Part shown: in pieces, positions 5,421-15,340 of the stretch
Numbering within the stretch: position 1 is the stretch's first letter
Layout of the letters: each line of letters begins with the position of its first letter
Virus record (IMG/VR): IMGVR_UViG_3300032020_000035
Location: 1-30,140 of that record
DNA length: 30,140 bases
Source of the DNA: a virus
Strand: one strand, 5' to 3'
Position numbers and translations under genes: made by a program
The notes under the pieces: model-generated
Told to the model about the DNA's origin: nothing
The model's input: only the letters and a program-made list of their open reading frames with translations
The model's database searches: none

Positions 5421-6743
5421 TTATCTTAACACCCAAGCTGGTTTCGCCACAGTCCGCAACTGTTGAAATGCTCCACTCACCGCGTCCACTTGGTCATCGT
5501 GCATTCCTTGTGGAAACGCTTCAAACTCATCCAATAATACACCAATCCAACTCATTTCTGCTTGGGTATATAGCTTGCTTCTAACAAGTTTTATGTTGCC
5601 TGCTTCAGCCGCGCTACTCACTGGCGTCGCTCGTTCCTGTTTGGATCCTGTGGTTTTAACTCCCCAGAAACTGTAGCCGTTGAGCACCTGTCTTGCGTAA
5701 TAGTCCACTTGACTGACTCCGCTACTGCCAGGTTCTTGTTCCATGTAGATTCTTGTGGATACTCCGTCGAGTTCGGCGGTTTGTTTGATGAGGGCTTCAA
5801 CTTGTGGCGGTGCTCCTCGCATACGACGGATATCGAGTAGGTGATAGATGCCTTGTTTTTCTCCAAGTAAAGCGCCAACGGTGTAGTCTGGGTCTTTTCC
5901 CTCTTTCGGTTTGGTTGCGGCTAAATCCCAAAAACGAACCTTGCGCAAGTCTGCGGGTGCTTCATCGACGATAGTGAACCATTCTCGAAGGAAGATTGAG
6001 CCTCCATGCCTCGCTGTCCAGTCGCCATCTAAGTATTGTCGTCTTGTGATTGGGTCGAGCTCTCTTAAACTTTCGATGTATTTTGCTTGGTCAAGATTAG
6101 GGTTGTCTGCTAATTTGGCTGGAACAAACACTCGTCCATAGGTTGCTCCTTCATCTATGAATCGGCGTTTTACCCAGTCGTGGCCAATGTTGCCTGGATT
6201 ACTTGCACTACGCATTCGTAGGGGAATCTGACTGTTTTCCAATCTACGCAAACGACTGAATAAGTACCTGTATTGCGATTCTGTGAATTGCGTGAGTTCG
6301 TCGAATCCGATGTATTGGAATGCTGCTGATTGGTATCGGTATTTGTCGTTTTCATGTTCCATGTTTCCAAACGCTAAACTGGCGCCGCTTGGGAAGCGCC
6401 AGATGTGGTTGATTCCATCCCATCGGGCCTGTGTTGGTTTCAGCCACTCGATTGACCGTGCGATTAACGCTTCGGGAAGTGTAAGGTCACTGTAGGTGCG
6501 TCTAAATAAGATGGCGTTGTAGTTGGGTATGTTGGTGAACATGAGGGCTGCCATGAGTAGGGCATCTGATTTGCCTCCGCCTGCGGCTCCTCCGTATAGG
6601 GCTTCTGTGCATGTTAGGCAGAGGAACTCCGCTTGTTTTTGTGTTAAGCCTTTGCCGTCAAGTTGTGGTTGTCTGTGGTTCTGTGGTATCCATTTGTTTT
6701 CGAGTACGTAGTGCTTCAAGGTCTCGGTTAATTGCTGCTTCAA
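5421..6743 (-). CDS. terL: Terminase large subunit
   Basis: This 440-residue packaging motor pairs an ATPase with a nuclease. Walker A is GAAGGGKS (residues 52-59) and Walker B is YIGFDE (144-149). A coupling motif (SASNPGN) follows near 179. The RNase H-like nuclease domain has FWDLAAT with Asp273, MEQEPGSSG with Glu335 and HDDQVDAVS with the final Asp pair (417, 420). It cuts concatemers and pumps DNA through the portal. The ATG at 6743 lies 86 bases inside the small-subunit gene and no later start keeps the N-terminus, so the overlap appears real and implies translational coupling. Confidence 0.95.
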   Translation of the reverse strand: MKQQLTETLKHYVLENKWIPQNHRQPQLDGKGLTQKQAEFLCLTCTEALYGGAAGGGKSDALLMAALMFTNIPNYNAILFRRTYSDLTLPEALIARSIEWLKPTQARWDGINHIWRFPSGASLAFGNMEHENDKYRYQSAAFQYIGFDELTQFTESQYRYLFSRLRRLENSQIPLRMRSASNPGNIGHDWVKRRFIDEGATYGRVFVPAKLADNPNLDQAKYIESLRELDPITRRQYLDGDWTARHGGSIFLREWFTIVDEAPADLRKVRFWDLAATKPKEGKDPDYTVGALLGEKQGIYHLLDIRRMRGAPPQVEALIKQTAELDGVSTRIYMEQEPGSSGVSQVDYYARQVLNGYSFWGVKTTGSKQERATPVSSAAEAGNIKLVRSKLYTQAEMSWIGVLLDEFEAFPQGMHDDQVDAVSGAFQQLRTVAKPAWVLR

Positions 6744-7086
6744 CTGCTGTAGTGTAGTCTGCGATGATTGTGATATCTCTATTTTCAGTTACCTCCTTCG
6801 TGATGGTTAAGGCTTCTATTCGGCGTGTAAGCATGTTACTTACAAGTTTGGTTAGGTTGCGGTAGGCTTCCGTTGGGTTTTCATGTATGATTATGTAGTG
6901 TATGCGCATCCATTCTTCTTTTAGCCATTCTTCGAATTCGCCGCTGTTGCGGAATTTGGCGAGGTCTCGGTCTATGGTTTTGTCTTGTACTCCGCAGTGT
7001 TCAGCGATTTGTGTTATGGTTTGGCCTGAGAGTAGGTCTTGTTTTATTTTTGGTAGGCGTTGAAGTGTTTGTGTGGAGAGGGACAT
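6658..7086 (-). CDS. terS: Terminase small subunit
   Basis: This 142-residue protein has an N-terminal helix-turn-helix (residues ~20-47, GQTITQIAEHCGVQDKTIDRDL), a central helical hairpin and a Thr-rich tail, the layout of small terminase subunits that recognise packaging sites. It lies directly upstream of terL and overlaps it by 86 bases. Its own start follows the last micro-gene by only 6 bases, tying the micro-gene array to the packaging operon. The call rests on position and the HTH. Confidence 0.75.
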   Translation of the reverse strand: MSLSTQTLQRLPKIKQDLLSGQTITQIAEHCGVQDKTIDRDLAKFRNSGEFEEWLKEEWMRIHYIIIHENPTEAYRNLTKLVSNMLTRRIEALTITKEVTENRDITIIADYTTAVEAAINRDLEALRTRKQMDTTEPQTTTT

Positions 7087-7092
7087 TCTGGG

Positions 7093-7224
7093 TCACGTTT
7101 TTATTTTTAGTAGTTCGTCTGCGGCTTGGAGTTCACGGAGGATTTTGCACATTGAGTTAGCGTAGCAGTTTTCGCATGAGGGTACGTCTTTTTGTTCTGC
7201 GAGGTAGCAGGGAGGCGTAGTCAT
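7093..7224 (-). CDS. Cys4 microprotein with C-x10-C-x2-C-x5-C pattern
   Basis: This 43-residue protein has Cys at 6, 17, 20 and 26 (PPCYLAEQ, PSCENCYANSMC) followed by an amphipathic helix (KILRELQAADELL). The spacing of the last three Cys (C-x2-C-x5-C, with one more Cys upstream) resembles the Fe-S ligand set of Cas4/AddB-type proteins, but no nuclease is present, so this could be a free Fe-S or Zn mini-domain. An in-frame ATG at 7236 would add four residues including another Cys. It lies 13 bases after the preceding micro-gene and 6 bases before terS. It was identified by manual translation of a stretch with no longer gene. Confidence 0.6.
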   Translation of the reverse strand: MTTPPCYLAEQKDVPSCENCYANSMCKILRELQAADELLKIKT

Positions 7225-7237
7225 GAGAGAGCACATC

Positions 7238-7360
7238 CTAAGCCTTACGATTGCGCTTTCTATCAAGGTCTTCGGTTACGCTTGCGGTGAAGCAGTATCC
7301 CCAGAAAAACCATGCAAATGTCCAGATGGCTATGAATCCAAGTTCAGAGAACAATATCAT
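7238..7360 (-). CDS. 40-residue single-span membrane microprotein
   Basis: An aromatic-rich hydrophobic segment (residues 2-25, with FIAIWTFAWFFWGY) is followed by a basic tail ending DRKRNRKA, so it should sit in the membrane with the tail inside (positive-inside rule). Its ATG overlaps the stop of the upstream Zn-ribbon microprotein as ATGA, which strongly supports translation of both. The function is unknown. Hydrophobic peptides of this size can act as holins, antiholins or membrane adaptors, but nothing here decides between them. Confidence 0.6.
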   Translation of the reverse strand: MILFSELGFIAIWTFAWFFWGYCFTASVTEDLDRKRNRKA

Positions 7361-7458
7361 TTGTCATTCACTTTCCTGCATCGTGGGCATCCTAAGTCAC
7401 CTTGCCTTGCTGAGTATGAATAGTAGTTGTTGTGGATGGGGCAGTAGTAATTTGTCAT
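7357..7458 (-). CDS. 33-residue Zn-ribbon-like microprotein (CPIH...CPRC)
   Basis: The sequence carries YYCPIHNNYY and GCPRCRKVNDK, giving a C-x2-H and a C-x2-C knuckle 14 residues apart, enough to bind one Zn ion. Both ends overlap neighbouring micro-genes by an ATGA junction. Such a short autonomous Zn ribbon could bind RNA or DNA or act as a small adaptor. The paired knuckles and coupled start make chance unlikely, but expression is unproven. Confidence 0.6.
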   Translation of the reverse strand: MTNYYCPIHNNYYSYSARQGDLGCPRCRKVNDK

Positions 7459-7619
7459 ATGTTACTACCACTCGAAAGGGTGTACCAATATGATTGACAA
7501 GCCTTATCATGTAAGAGTTCGTTGCACCATGGGCATTCAAGAAACAGGTTGTTAACCCATCTGCCACAATTTGGACACTTGATGAGTAATACCTGACATC
7601 CAGTTGCAGAAGTGCTCAT
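7455..7619 (-). CDS. 54-residue Zn-ribbon protein
   Basis: The motif IKCPNCGRWVNNLFLECPWCNE contains two CPxC knuckles (Cys15/18 and Cys29/32), a classic double-knuckle Zn ribbon, preceded by a short N-terminal strand and followed by a 20-residue tail. It starts 6 bases after the stop of the 36-residue membrane peptide and overlaps the next micro-gene by ATGA. The likely role is nucleic-acid or protein binding; no partner can be named. Confidence 0.7.
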   Translation of the reverse strand: MSTSATGCQVLLIKCPNCGRWVNNLFLECPWCNELLHDKACQSYWYTLSSGSNI

Positions 7620-7625
7620 CTGTAT

Positions 7626-7736
7626 CTACGCCTTTGTTTTGCGTTTCAAATACTCAACTACACAACGAATGATGTAGCCTGTGACCAACATTCCATAGGC
7701 GACTGCTACGAAAAGAGCTGTTTCTAACCCGTCCAT
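7626..7736 (-). CDS. 36-residue single-span membrane microprotein
   Basis: MDGLETALFVAVAYGMLVTG begins a hydrophobic span (residues 4-28), followed by a basic end (EYLKRKTKA). The ATG is 2 bases after the stop of the secreted beta-sandwich gene, so it continues the same transcript. It is the first of five micro-genes filling 7093-7736. It is probably a small inner-membrane partner of the neighbouring membrane proteins. Confidence 0.6.
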   Translation of the reverse strand: MDGLETALFVAVAYGMLVTGYIIRCVVEYLKRKTKA

Positions 7737-7738
7737 TG

Positions 7739-8188
7739 TTATGCCTCTGTTGCAGTTATGGTCATGATGAATGTGAAGGCATCAATGTTTTCTATTTTAG
7801 GCTTCACATGCAACGTGAAGGTTGTGGATTGCAACGCATTTGGGGGTAATGGTGTGTCCGTGTAGTTCCAAGTTAATGCTATAAAATTTGAAGCATTTAT
7901 TGGTTGCCAATCACTTGTGTTCAAGGCTAAAGTAGCGATTGTATTGTTTACGTTTTTGATGTATGCTAAGACTGTTTTGTTTTCGCCTGGTGCCAATGTG
8001 CCCCAGTTGATGCTTGTTAATCTTGTGGTTTGGTTTGCGTCGGTGTAGATTTCAACGCCAATTGTTCGAATGTTAGATGATGGGGGAAATAGGTTCGATC
8101 CAACTGCAATAAGAGCAGTTACCAACACTACGCCCAAGCAAATCATTATGTTTCTTAGGCGGTTGCTCTGTTTTTGCTGGTAAATCAT
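7739..8188 (-). CDS. Membrane-anchored beta-sandwich protein, Bathyarchaeia-like type
   Basis: This 149-residue protein has one N-terminal membrane span (residues ~15-33, MICLGVVLVTALIAVGSN) and a single extracellular beta-sandwich: IGVEIYTDANQTTRLTSINW, LAPGENKTVLAYIKN, LALNTSDWQPINASNFIALTWNY. Four or more NxS/T sequons suggest surface glycosylation in an archaeon. From memory this fold and wording (IYTDAN...TSINWG) recur in Bathyarchaeia and other Thermoproteota proteins related to small surface or pilus-like subunits. I use it as the main host clue. It overlaps the upstream coiled-coil membrane gene by 4 bases. It may be taken from the host and shown on the cell or virion surface. Confidence 0.65.
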   Translation of the reverse strand: MIYQQKQSNRLRNIMICLGVVLVTALIAVGSNLFPPSSNIRTIGVEIYTDANQTTRLTSINWGTLAPGENKTVLAYIKNVNNTIATLALNTSDWQPINASNFIALTWNYTDTPLPPNALQSTTFTLHVKPKIENIDAFTFIMTITATEA

Positions 8189-8733
8189 TTGTAAATCGTC
8201 ACAGTTTCTTGTTTCAGCTTTAATATTTGGTTTTGGAGAGTTTGCTCCATAATGTTGTAGTCGTTCTGCAATTTTTCATAGTTGCTCTTCCATAATGCTG
8301 CGTTTTCCTGCTCTGTTGTGGCATCTGCCAGTTTCTGTTGAGATGTGGCGAGTTCGCTTTGAAGACCCGTGATGGTTTTTCCTTGCGTAGTTATTGCGTT
8401 TTGCATGGTTACGTATTGTTGAGTGGCATTGCTCTGCACAGTGTCTATTTGTGTTTCTGCTGCTTGCTTGGTTGCGGTAACTCGGTTCTGCATTAACCGG
8501 TAGGTAGTGGCGATGGCGGTTATTGCCGCGCCTACTCCACCTATAACTAATTGTAGTTTATCTTGGATGTAAGATGTGACTGTGTTGACTGTGTTCAATG
8601 TGGTGTTAAGTGTGTAGGATGCGAAGCCTTGTGGTGTGAGTGGGTTTCCAGCGAGGTAAAATTGAATGGCCATTGCAACCGCGTAGGTAGCTGCAATGAG
8701 GAAGAGTATGGTTATGATTAGTTTCCAATTCAT
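8185..8733 (-). CDS. Two-span membrane protein with long coiled coil
   Basis: This 182-residue protein has an N-terminal span (residues ~4-27), an extracytoplasmic stretch with three NxT sequons, a second span around 62-82 (LQLVIGGVGAAITAIATTY), then about 95 residues of heptad-like coiled coil rich in Q, T, A and E, ending KLKQETVTIYK. If both ends face inside, the coiled coil projects into the cytoplasm, where it could meet the GTPase encoded two genes upstream. A ribosome-binding site (AAGGTGA) precedes the ATG. No enzyme motif is visible. Confidence 0.6.
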   Translation of the reverse strand: MNWKLIITILFLIAATYAVAMAIQFYLAGNPLTPQGFASYTLNTTLNTVNTVTSYIQDKLQLVIGGVGAAITAIATTYRLMQNRVTATKQAAETQIDTVQSNATQQYVTMQNAITTQGKTITGLQSELATSQQKLADATTEQENAALWKSNYEKLQNDYNIMEQTLQNQILKLKQETVTIYK

Positions 8734-8745
8734 GGTTTTTCACCT

Positions 8746-9084
8746 TTAAATAGGATTGATTGGTTCAAAGATTTCAGGAAGTTTATTGAGGATAGGTTCA
8801 AAATATTTGGTGAAGTTGTCTCGAGTTAGCCGTATGTAGTCATGAATGGGAATTAGCAAAGTTTGGTTTTGCACCCATGACCTACCATCGCCATCCTGCA
8901 CTTTCTCAATATGCGATAATGCCACTACTTGTTCTGTGGATAACCACCATTCAGTAGGATCAGTATGCGTCAACTTTCTCAGGAATTGCAAGCTTGTATC
9001 GGACATGATTTCATTTACGCGCACCGTCTTCAACAGTATGATTTTGCCGTCGATCATGCCATAGAAGAAGCGTTCTATCTTCAA
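8746..9084 (-). CDS. Hypothetical protein, GTPase neighbour
   Basis: This soluble protein of 112 residues opens with a beta-rich segment (IERFFYGMIDGKIILLKTVRV), then helices, and ends in a Pro/Glu-containing tail (LPEIFEPINPI). I do not recognise the family. Its ATG overlaps the stop of the GTPase gene by 4 bases, so equal production and a physical link to the GTPase are plausible. It could be a regulator or effector. Confidence 0.55.
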   Translation of the reverse strand: MKIERFFYGMIDGKIILLKTVRVNEIMSDTSLQFLRKLTHTDPTEWWLSTEQVVALSHIEKVQDGDGRSWVQNQTLLIPIHDYIRLTRDNFTKYFEPILNKLPEIFEPINPI

Positions 9085-10058
9085 TCGCCAAACGACCCAA
9101 GATCTTCAACTAAATTACGGTATTCGAGGTCGCTGAAGCGTGGCTTAAACCGTATGTAACTTGTTGGATCTTCATACACTTCGATTATGGGTTTCTTTGA
9201 TTCGGATGGATCTGTGACTGGCCAATGCATGGGGTTGCCTTCTTCATTCTTTTTGATGTTGAACCAACTTCGGTAATATTTGACCATGCCTTTGTCTCGA
9301 AGTGGCTTTAGGAGCATGCTTGTGGCAGGGAACCCGTTGGCGAGGAATCTGTCAAGTTGATCTTGGCTGTCATAAACATCCATTTGGATGTCTTGCGCTT
9401 TCTCAACGACTTGGTCCCATTTAGTTAAGATGACTCTAACATGTGGATCTGGCTTGTGGTTTCTTCTCCTGTACTCCAGAATGTCATTCATAACTGTGTG
9501 TGTGTAAACATCTGGGTCAAAGGTGGATGGATTGCCCCTGAACATTAATGCGTCTAGCGCAGATAAGGCGATGAGAAAGCCCTGACAGTCCTTGATGGTT
9601 GCCACGACTTCAGTGTTCACGCTTTGTAAGCGTTGCATGATGATTTGGCTAGGCGTAAACCCTGATGCTCTGGTTGCTATGTAATCGGTGATTTCGCCTG
9701 CTACATCGCAAATGGGCACTTGCACTTTCTTTTCTCGCCATCCACGTTGGCAAATAAGCAATCCTGCTTCTGGGGCACGTGGCAAATATGGGTCGGTCTT
9801 TTCTGGGAAGTGACCAAGTCGCAAGTTGTTAGCATCTGAGAGGATGTGCGTACTTGTAGGTAGAACCCGACAGTAAAAGTTGGGCTGTAAAGAACTGAGG
9901 GTTTCACATGTGTGAACTATGGCTGCTGCTATCGTACTTTTGCCACTCATGACTGGGCCGAGCATGCCAAAGCGTGTTTTTACCTTGTAGCTTTTGGTGT
10001 AGTCACCCATCATGTCAACTGGCTTCGGCTTGGCCCACTGGGGAATATACTTGCTCAA
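9081..10058 (-). CDS. TRAFAC-like P-loop GTPase
   Basis: This 325-residue protein has G1/Walker A GPVMSGKST (34-42), G3 DVAGE (118-122, of the DxxG type) and G4 TKWD (212-215, of the [NT]KxD type), so GTP rather than ATP is the likely nucleotide. The DxAGE form is reminiscent of the double-GTPase (DO-GTPase) families described around membrane and conflict systems, though I see only one GTPase domain. The last 90 residues form a separate domain (WFNIKKNEEG, PIIEVYEDPTSYIRFKPRF). The start is TTG, two bases after the stop of a two-span membrane protein, with GGAAG upstream. Flanking genes encode membrane proteins, suggesting a membrane-remodelling, trafficking or signalling role. This is the largest unexplained enzyme of the genome. 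Confidence 0.7.
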   Translation of the reverse strand: MSKYIPQWAKPKPVDMMGDYTKSYKVKTRFGMLGPVMSGKSTIAAAIVHTCETLSSLQPNFYCRVLPTSTHILSDANNLRLGHFPEKTDPYLPRAPEAGLLICQRGWREKKVQVPICDVAGEITDYIATRASGFTPSQIIMQRLQSVNTEVVATIKDCQGFLIALSALDALMFRGNPSTFDPDVYTHTVMNDILEYRRRNHKPDPHVRVILTKWDQVVEKAQDIQMDVYDSQDQLDRFLANGFPATSMLLKPLRDKGMVKYYRSWFNIKKNEEGNPMHWPVTDPSESKKPIIEVYEDPTSYIRFKPRFSDLEYRNLVEDLGSFGD

Positions 10059-13782: not shown

Positions 13783-13974
13783 ATGTCTACAGAAATTGAA
13801 ATGACAACCATCCAAATAACAAAGGGTCAAAGAAGAGACTTGGAGGCTATGAAAATCATCCCTGAAGAACCAATCTTCAAAGTGATGGAACGGTTGCTAA
13901 AAGAGTTGGCGCGACTTGTTGAAGCTGAGAATGAGTGTAAAGTAAAAGTGTTGAAGGAGAGCGAGAAACAGTGA
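13783..13974 (+). CDS. Ribbon-helix-helix-like small regulator
   Basis: This 63-residue protein opens with a beta strand (MTTIQITKGQ), then two helices (RRDLEAMK...PEEPIFKVMERLLKELARL) and a charged tail. The pattern resembles archaeal antitoxin-type regulators that begin MTTIQ. A GTG at 13774 would add three residues. It is the first gene of the plus-strand operon, right behind the TATA box, so it may autoregulate. The next gene starts with GTG overlapping its stop. Confidence 0.6.
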   Translation: MSTEIEMTTIQITKGQRRDLEAMKIIPEEPIFKVMERLLKELARLVEAENECKVKVLKESEKQ

Positions 13975-14254
13975 AGCGTATTCAACGGAAAAGAACTCTT
14001 TTCTGGCGTATGCCACCTAACACGGTTTATGTTGGGCGACCATCCAAATGGGGAAATCCATACAAAGTAAGTGAATTCAACGACCCTGATGAGTGCCTTA
14101 GACTTTATCGTGATTGGCTCCAACGAAATTTAAATGGTAAACCAGATTTTCTTGACCCATTAAAGGGAAAGGATTTGGCTTGTTGGTGTCGACTTGATAA
14201 ACCCTGCCATGCTGACATTCTGCTTGAATTCTTGGAGGCGAAGAAACAGTGAAG
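13964..14254 (+). repeat. 13-base repeat at two successive gene junctions
   Basis: AGAAACAGTGAAG occurs at 13964-13976 and 14242-14254, each time spanning the stop of one gene and the overlapping GTG start of the next. It is the plus-strand counterpart of the junction repeats in the opposite early operon and suggests gene insertion by copying of a junction unit. Confidence 0.6.
13971..14252 (+). CDS. DUF4326 family protein
   Basis: This 93-residue protein contains the family's hallmark segments: YVGRPSKWGNPYKV, a helix with CLRLYRDWLQ, and LACWCRLDKPCHADIL with the conserved CWC...PCHxDxL set. DUF4326 proteins are common in viruses and bacteria and have no settled biochemical role. The GTG start overlaps the preceding stop (GTGA). 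The AGAAACAGTGAAG around this start is repeated exactly at the start of the next gene. Confidence 0.85.
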   Translation: MKRIQRKRTLFWRMPPNTVYVGRPSKWGNPYKVSEFNDPDECLRLYRDWLQRNLNGKPDFLDPLKGKDLACWCRLDKPCHADILLEFLEAKKQ

Positions 14255-14326
14255 TTGCCACCCTGCTTCGATGCTCGCAACCTACCATGCAAATGTAAGA
14301 AACATTGTTGGAGAGAAAAACCTTGA
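14249..14326 (+). CDS. 25-residue Cys4 microprotein
   Basis: The peptide MKLPPCFDARNLPCKCKKHC and five more residues carry Cys at 6, 14, 16 and 20, sufficient for one metal ion. It begins with GTG overlapping the DUF4326 stop and ends in TGA overlapped by a TTG start of the next gene. The Cys spacing plus coupled junctions on both sides support it despite its size. Confidence 0.45.
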   Translation: MKLPPCFDARNLPCKCKKHCWREKP

Positions 14327-14547
14327 TTGTTGATATTGAAGATGTAAGGCGCCTAATCAAAGACGCATTAGACCACCATGACCGAATCCATGATGCTTTC
14401 TCTGAAGGCCAAGAAATTGCTTTGCGAGAAATCATAAGAGATGAAATAGAAAAGTTAGATGCAGCAGGCTTCTTTAACCATGACCATGAAGAGGGTGAGA
14501 TGAAGCATTATGTTAAACGAGATGAAAAAGACGCTCAGAGCGGTTGA
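14323..14547 (+). CDS. Small acidic helical protein
   Basis: About 74 residues, mostly helical and acidic with a His-rich stretch (HHDRIHDAF...FFNHDHEEGEMKHY). I prefer the TTG at 14323, which overlaps the upstream stop in the same way as its neighbours; a TTG at 14305 is possible. The function is unknown. The His/Asp cluster could bind metal. Confidence 0.5.
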   Translation: MIVDIEDVRRLIKDALDHHDRIHDAFSEGQEIALREIIRDEIEKLDAAGFFNHDHEEGEMKHYVKRDEKDAQSG

Positions 14548-14565
14548 GGAAAAGAGGAATCAAAA

Positions 14566-14847
14566 ATGGTTAAGAAAATGGTGAAATGTGAAGTTTGCGG
14601 AAAAGGCGACCTCGACCAAGGACAAGATTTCTGTTATGGGTGTGGACATATAGTTTGCACAGATTGCTGTTACGATTCAGAATACGATGAGTTTCTTGCC
14701 AGTAACAACTGTGAATGTTGCCCGATCTACGCCGACACATGTGGACTTGTGGGTTTATGCGAAACAGAAACTTGTGCTTGCCTCACCTGCAAGGATGGAA
14801 GCAACAAGTCAGAAAGTTGCGAATTAAGATGGAAGGCGAAACCATGA
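14566..14847 (+). CDS. Cys-rich multi-Zn protein
   Basis: This 93-residue protein has 17 Cys. CEVCGKGDLD and FCYGCGHIVCTDCC form a RING/treble-clef-like first cluster, followed by NNCECCPIYADTCGLVGLCETETCACLTC. It probably binds two or three Zn ions and works in protein or nucleic-acid contacts; a ubiquitin-like role cannot be claimed. The next gene overlaps its stop by ATGA. Confidence 0.65.
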   Translation: MVKKMVKCEVCGKGDLDQGQDFCYGCGHIVCTDCCYDSEYDEFLASNNCECCPIYADTCGLVGLCETETCACLTCKDGSNKSESCELRWKAKP

Positions 14848-15026
14848 CAACTGAAGAAATCTACAAAGATGGTTTATGTGGCAAAAAGCTTCGCGTTAAA
14901 CGGTGGGAACGAGGCTATAGTATCAAATGTTCACGGAAAACCATTGTCTGTAGACCATACTACGAAGACCACTATCAAACGGATATAGGCTCATGGTGTA
15001 AAGGTTGTAAGAAGGCTACCAAATGA
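14844..15026 (+). CDS. Small basic Cys-containing protein
   Basis: This 60-residue basic protein has Cys at 12, 29, 36, 52 and 55 (GLCGKK, IKCSRK, IVCRPY, SWCKGCKK). The ATG at 14844 overlaps the upstream stop as ATGA; an in-frame ATG at 14829 is less likely. It is probably a Zn-stabilised nucleic-acid-binding protein. The family is unrecognised. Confidence 0.55.
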   Translation: MTTEEIYKDGLCGKKLRVKRWERGYSIKCSRKTIVCRPYYEDHYQTDIGSWCKGCKKATK

Positions 15027-15340
15027 AGACTCTTTCAGGCAAACCAGGCGAAAAAACTGAGCACATGGAATACTGGTACTGTCCAAAATGTGGAAGAATA
15101 AAAAGAACCGACTATGAAATTGTCCATTATGAGAATGACTTGTTGATGTTTCATCGTGTTTGTGGAGCTAAATTGAAATCGTTGACTTACACACGAACAA
15201 GCATCTTTGCCACAAAGTCCCAGTTAAGTTTGGTTACCTTAGTTCAAGAGAAGTTGGGAAGACCACCGAAGCATCCTGGGAGAAGGCCTCTTCACGGTTG
15301 GATGGAACCTGACAGTTTAGATGAAGTGTTGAGGAGATGA
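15023..15340 (+). CDS. Zn-knuckle protein with AT-hook-like tail
   Basis: This 105-residue protein has an N-terminal knuckle YCPKCGRIKR and a later VCG that could complete a metal site. A basic segment at ~79-92 (LGRPPKHPGRRPLHGW) resembles an AT-hook DNA-minor-groove motif. It starts with an ATGA overlap. The layout suggests a DNA- or chromatin-associated early protein. Confidence 0.6.
   Translation: MKTLSGKPGEKTEHMEYWYCPKCGRIKRTDYEIVHYENDLLMFHRVCGAKLKSLTYTRTSIFATKSQLSLVTLVQEKLGRPPKHPGRRPLHGWMEPDSLDEVLRR

Follow-up and report, generated by a model that had tools for sequence, protein, structure and literature searches.

The DNA analyzed here, the window, is a viral stretch of 30,140 nt (positions counted from 1), whose minus strand carries at 7093-7736 an array of five ATG-started frames of 36, 54, 33, 40 and 47 codons, lettered A to E, between the gene of an Ig-like protein and terS. 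The first-pass annotation of this DNA had described five micro-genes of membrane and Cys-knuckle type at this place, and all five frames are indeed present. Frame A (7626-7736) is an open reading frame for a 36-aa peptide with a single predicted transmembrane (TM) segment (hydropathy 1.89 over 19 residues), an acidic N-terminal flank (-2) and a basic C-terminal tail (+3). Frame B (7455-7619) is an open reading frame for a 54-aa peptide with a CPNC-x10-CPWC double knuckle and is followed by C (7357-7458), which encodes 33 aa with CPIHN...CPRC knuckles and whose start overlaps the stop of B by four bases. In the same manner, the start of D (7238-7360) overlaps the stop of C by four bases; D would be a second single-TM peptide, of 40 aa and with a basic tail, having a hydropathy of 1.76 and a GES score within the range of the TM peptides of related viruses. 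Frame E (7093-7236), again an open reading frame, encodes a Cys-rich peptide of 47 aa with a C-x10-C-x2-C-x5-C core, and an alternative ATG at 7224 yields a 43-aa product with four cysteines. B, C and E are probably single-domain Cys-knuckle peptides for which zinc binding is predicted from the motifs only, and A and D would insert into the membrane as single-pass peptides with basic C-terminal tails.

From the Ig-like gene (stop at 7739) to the start of terS (7086) there are 652 bases, 637 of which are covered by the five frames. Frame A follows the Ig-like gene at a distance of 2 bases and B follows A at 6, the B-C and C-D junctions are the 4-base overlaps (ATGA), D and E are separated by a single base, or by 13 if the second ATG of E is used, and 6 bases remain between E and terS. 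The ATGA overlaps reported earlier are confirmed, and the gaps are of 1-6 bases, or 13 with the second start of E. Long genes on the same strand show similar spacing (-4, 1, 2 and 3). In 3000 compositionally matched sequences from a first-order Markov model, searched for ATG-started chains of ORFs of at least 30 codons, neither the cover of the array nor its five chained members were ever reached, and one in 3000 contained at least two ORFs with two C-x2-C/H knuckles each.

Codon usage points in the same direction. The codon log-odds of A, C, D and E exceed the 95th percentile of chance ORFs (A, 0.21 bits per codon; D, 0.14; E, 0.11); the score of B is negative overall and below that percentile. 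Synonymous codon choice is gene-like (positive) in all five frames, and since this includes B, its negative overall score fits its Cys/Trp/Asn-rich make-up. Frames competing with A-E on either strand have negative codon scores. A structured RNA or tRNA was rejected as a reading of the array, as Rfam and ARAGORN searches returned no RNA family and no tRNA. Promoter and terminator scans gave signals not above those of shuffled sequences. None of A-E matches a Pfam family above the curated cut-off, and their PHROG matches are weak and of unknown function. Taken together, A-E are very probably five genuine, tightly coupled micro-genes.

The array sits, as initially described, between a GTPase module and terS, with the Ig-like gene and terS as its borders. 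The downstream border, terS (6658-7086, minus strand), encodes an HTH protein directly upstream of terL with weak PHROG matches to the terminase small subunit; in 13 loci a homolog lies upstream of terL, and a separate scan for terS confirmed nothing. The upstream border (7739-8188, minus strand) encodes a TM-anchored, probably secreted protein that appears Ig-like on reading its sequence and that has homologs in contigs L018, L094 and L106. Next to it on the same strand lie the gene of a TM protein with a long coiled coil (8185-8733), which belongs to the module and has homologs in the corresponding position of the other module contigs, and up112 (8746-9084), which immediately follows the GTPase and encodes its small alpha/beta partner (alignment A6 of 13). 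The predicted model of up112 (pLDDT 90) is an alpha/beta domain whose best structural matches, all weak, are TagF, Rag-type GTPases and the longin domain. The GTPase itself (9081-10058, minus strand) carries a P-loop and a TKWD motif (alignment A5), and its model weakly matches TRAFAC GTPases. The GTPase and up112 module (window 8746-10058) occurs in about 17 viral contigs and in none of the phage records searched with the GTPase.

A search with terL recovered 80 viral loci, the closest of which are 79-85% identical, and those with terL above 79% identity begin inside terL and stop short of the array region. In tblastn searches of the fetched loci none of A-E gave a match at E below 0.02, nor did A-E show significant homology to the Zn63, TM42-48 and MIWKC families of micro-genes found there. 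A six-peptide scan of viral contigs likewise produced no orthologs of A-E at the sensitivity used, which is weak evidence since the closest records to the window may be absent from these searches. Short of these thresholds, E pairs weakly with an L093 peptide of Cys4 type (43% across 28 aa, E 0.037). In the case of C, a 32-aa peptide of L093 (6186-6284, CxxHN...CPKC) is comparable in size, pattern and position; the agreement goes no further, as BLASTP gave no alignment between the two.

Related viruses keep the class and place of these genes without keeping their sequence or Cys positions. In L001-L004 the region from the TM coiled-coil gene to terS contains other small zinc and TM frames, and a 63-aa zinc ribbon is common to L003, L004 and L013 (alignment A1); searching with this ribbon recovered L091-L094. 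Further contigs were recovered with a GTPase profile, and 17 module contigs were used, including the window and L013, whose module was deduced from gene order. Genes mostly follow one another as g92, TM protein, GTPase, up112, coiled-coil TM protein, TM and zinc micro-genes, Ig-like protein, further micro-genes, terS and terL, with variations. Of the 17 module contigs (window included), 12 have a zinc micro-ORF in the 3 kb upstream of terL, versus 3 of 39 terL relatives lacking the module, and the density upstream of terL is 0.33 versus 0.03 per kb (Fisher P 3.6e-6, a value that ignores relatedness and includes contigs found through zinc micro-genes among the 17). Over the whole GTPase-to-terS interval, 22 zinc micro-ORFs lie on the coding strand and 8 on the reverse strand, against 0.45 in shuffles. 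TM micro-ORFs do not separate the strands in this way (24 coding, 41 reverse), therefore they are weaker evidence, and their enrichment was dropped as an argument.

Gene order provides further parallels. L093 carries a TM gene, a zinc ribbon and the 32-aa gene in the same order as A, B and C, the last joined by a 4-base overlap like that of B and C, with an extra 51-codon frame between its TM and zinc genes. TM and zinc genes are adjacent in L013, L092 and L103, as A and B are in the window, and L096, L105, L106 and L108 each have a TM micro-gene immediately upstream of terS. The slot before terS in relatives also carries genes for ParB and C5 methylase (L002, 4616-5899), DUF559 (L103, 10264-10674) or MT-A70 (L104, 10613-11431), and therefore has the look of a variable accessory site and exchange hotspot. 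In L091-L094 the GTPase module is kept next to terminase genes (terL) of another type than in L001-L004, hence recombination seems to have taken place at the junction near terS.

Three of the counterpart families in relatives are under purifying selection. The mean pN/pS of Zn63 is 0.30, with 28 of 28 pairs below 1 and dN/dS of 0.16-0.25 for the four closest pairs. TM42-48 has a pN/pS of 0.49 (15 of 15 pairs below 1; 0.09-0.12 for the two closest), and MIWKC, represented by ten sequences with a 23-codon core, one of 0.35 (45 of 45 pairs below 1). Micro-genes of 27-63 codons near terS are therefore real genes in these relatives.

The virus is probably a tailed virus of Bathyarchaeia. Its terL is 48-49% identical to that of the Methanobacterium phages psiM2 and psiM100, and a terL relative (49%) is present in a Bathycorpusculum genome. 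Searching 257 Bathyarchaeia genomes for the GTPase module gave one clear match and 13 others that are weak and short; the up112 profile search of these genomes reported none and missed a homolog present on the contig hit by the GTPase. That contig, L167 (3914-6744), comes from a genome of the class of Bathycorpusculum and has the order g92-like, winged-helix-like, TM, GTPase and a 203-aa up112-like gene; the order adjoins a cation-ATPase-like gene, and L167 may be a provirus or of cellular origin. A host among the Bathyarchaeia is likely because of this module order together with the terL relative. Among archaeal tailed viruses, the window resembles psiM2/psiM100 in terL, whereas neither its GTPase nor the Zn63 family of the related contigs has a relative in 50,697 phage records. 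The main text of a survey of Bathyarchaeia viruses (PMC10848311) does not contain the words zinc and GTPase.

Single-domain zinc micro-proteins are already well known in haloarchaea. In Haloferax volcanii, 282 proteins are shorter than 70 aa and 43 of these carry two C(P)XCG motifs (PMC10716476), and several such haloarchaeal proteins are described as important in stress adaptation, biofilm formation and swarming (PMC6562870, PMC10716476). The array peptides resemble these C(P)xCG micro-proteins in being encoded by separate small genes, probably archaeal, for single domains below 70 aa, a size range that holds for B (54 aa), C (33 aa) and E (47 aa), and, in B and C, in having two Cys knuckles. 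The knuckles are CPNCG and CPWCN in B, CPIHN and CPRCR in C, and a single CENC in E; of these, CPNCG alone ends in G. Unlike the H. volcanii proteins, those of the window are viral, stand in a serial array with TM peptides and include C-x2-H or non-CG knuckles in C, and Pfam gave no sequence family common to both sets. The MIWKC and Zn63 families of relatives share with the array the same slot, size class and double Cys knuckles. B matches zinc ribbons weakly and below the cut-off; it has the CxxC-x10-CxxC spacing of MIWKC and aligns to the MIWKC profile with an hhalign probability of 51%. A likeness to RanBP2-type fingers, below the Pfam cut-off, is seen in some MIWKC members and not in B: as a RanBP2-type zinc finger (PF00641) it was rejected, with no match at E 1 and without the expected Trp and Asn of the pattern W-x-C-x2-C-x3-N-x6-C-x2-C. 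The array is real and ordinary in kind; what sets it apart is that such zinc micro-genes stand in series, coupled to one another and to TM peptides, in a slot that is fixed within the virus family.

Our preferred explanation, which we hold tentatively and would put short of an even chance, is that A-E are genuine late-operon micro-proteins, membrane anchors and zinc adaptors beside the GTPase module. They would be expressed within a late (assembly and packaging) operon, probably by termination-reinitiation coupling. The conserved module comprises a TM protein, the GTPase, its alpha/beta partner, the TM coiled-coil protein and the Ig-like protein, and the slot between this membrane-associated module and the terminase genes is refilled by other TM and zinc micro-genes in relatives. 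During late infection the TM peptides may serve as anchors at the membrane next to the module, where the zinc peptides may bridge components, either proteins or nucleic acids; this presumes a partnership of A-E with the GTPase. The tiling, synonymous codons, spacing, association with the module, selection in relatives, TM-zinc neighbors and order in L093 argue for this explanation. It is weakened because the searches gave neither an ortholog of A-E nor a family above cut-off and B has a negative codon score, because the ParB, methylase and DUF559 genes of the slot fit unrelated accessory genes equally well, and because the coding strand is not enriched for TM micro-ORFs.

Nearly as likely, A-E are moron-type accessory genes that work independently and serve unrelated purposes, for example countering host defenses, taking over the host or regulating genes. 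They would have gathered in a hotspot of exchange ahead of terS, and zinc and TM peptides would simply be frequent among the small proteins of such viruses. The replacement of sequences among relatives, the ParB, C5 methylase, DUF559 and MT-A70 genes in the interval and the lack of homologs of A-E fit this well; yet zinc micro-ORFs track the GTPase module (12/17 versus 3/39) and TM-zinc neighbors recur, which suggests more than a chance collection. A lysis or egress cassette, in which the TM peptides form holin-like pores regulated by the Cys peptides, is an unlikely reading, although two single-TM peptides with basic tails lie in a late operon and four relatives also have a TM micro-gene just upstream of terS; no holin family of Pfam or PHROG is matched, and no endolysin-like gene stands beside the array. 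To our knowledge, archaeal lysis is poorly understood. We regard it as very improbable that the frames are chance or decayed ORFs, functionless remnants of a larger gene: the missing homologs and the negative score of B would agree with decay, but 0/3000 shuffles tile equally, synonymous use is positive in all five, complete TM and double-knuckle units are contained in single frames, and the counterparts in relatives are under selection.

Compared to the bacterial DO-GTPase/GAP1 systems, in which 60% of the GTPases carry zinc ribbons (PMC7159879), the window shares a GTPase followed by a partner gene and TM components, whereas its zinc parts are separate genes and up112 is not GAP1-N by profile. 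Indeed, up112 as GAP1-N was rejected, with no Pfam match in the up112 family and an hhalign probability below 1% against GAP1-N2, and the longer up112 homolog in L167 was negative as well. The window GTPase matches DO-GTPase in Pfam below the cut-off (E 0.22), and those of relatives match DO-GTPase1/2 with E down to 7e-6. We take this resemblance as a lead only. We consider it improbable that the virus carries, in split form, a GTPase-centric membrane signaling system whose zinc ribbons and TM anchors, fused to the GTPase in bacteria, are here separate, co-translated and exchangeable micro-proteins. If so, the virus would swap micro-proteins to retarget the GTPase module.

Annotation of viral genomes commonly omits genes of 27-54 codons. 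In the tailed-virus family described here, micro-genes of this size persist in class and place while their sequences are replaced, and selection is visible in three families of this region, with products as short as 27 aa. The array and its counterparts thus supply a defined group of very small zinc and membrane peptides for testing, and the work points to a GTPase module without a match in the named phage records searched. Elsewhere in the window, the plus strand holds at 13971-15340 a DUF4326 gene together with Cys-rich small genes (14566-14847 and 15023-15340) without Pfam match. In L092 (2973-3326) and L103 (7216-7569) the g92 homolog has a Cys4-type C-terminal extension, where a cysteine module that is elsewhere a separate micro-gene seems to be fused to g92.
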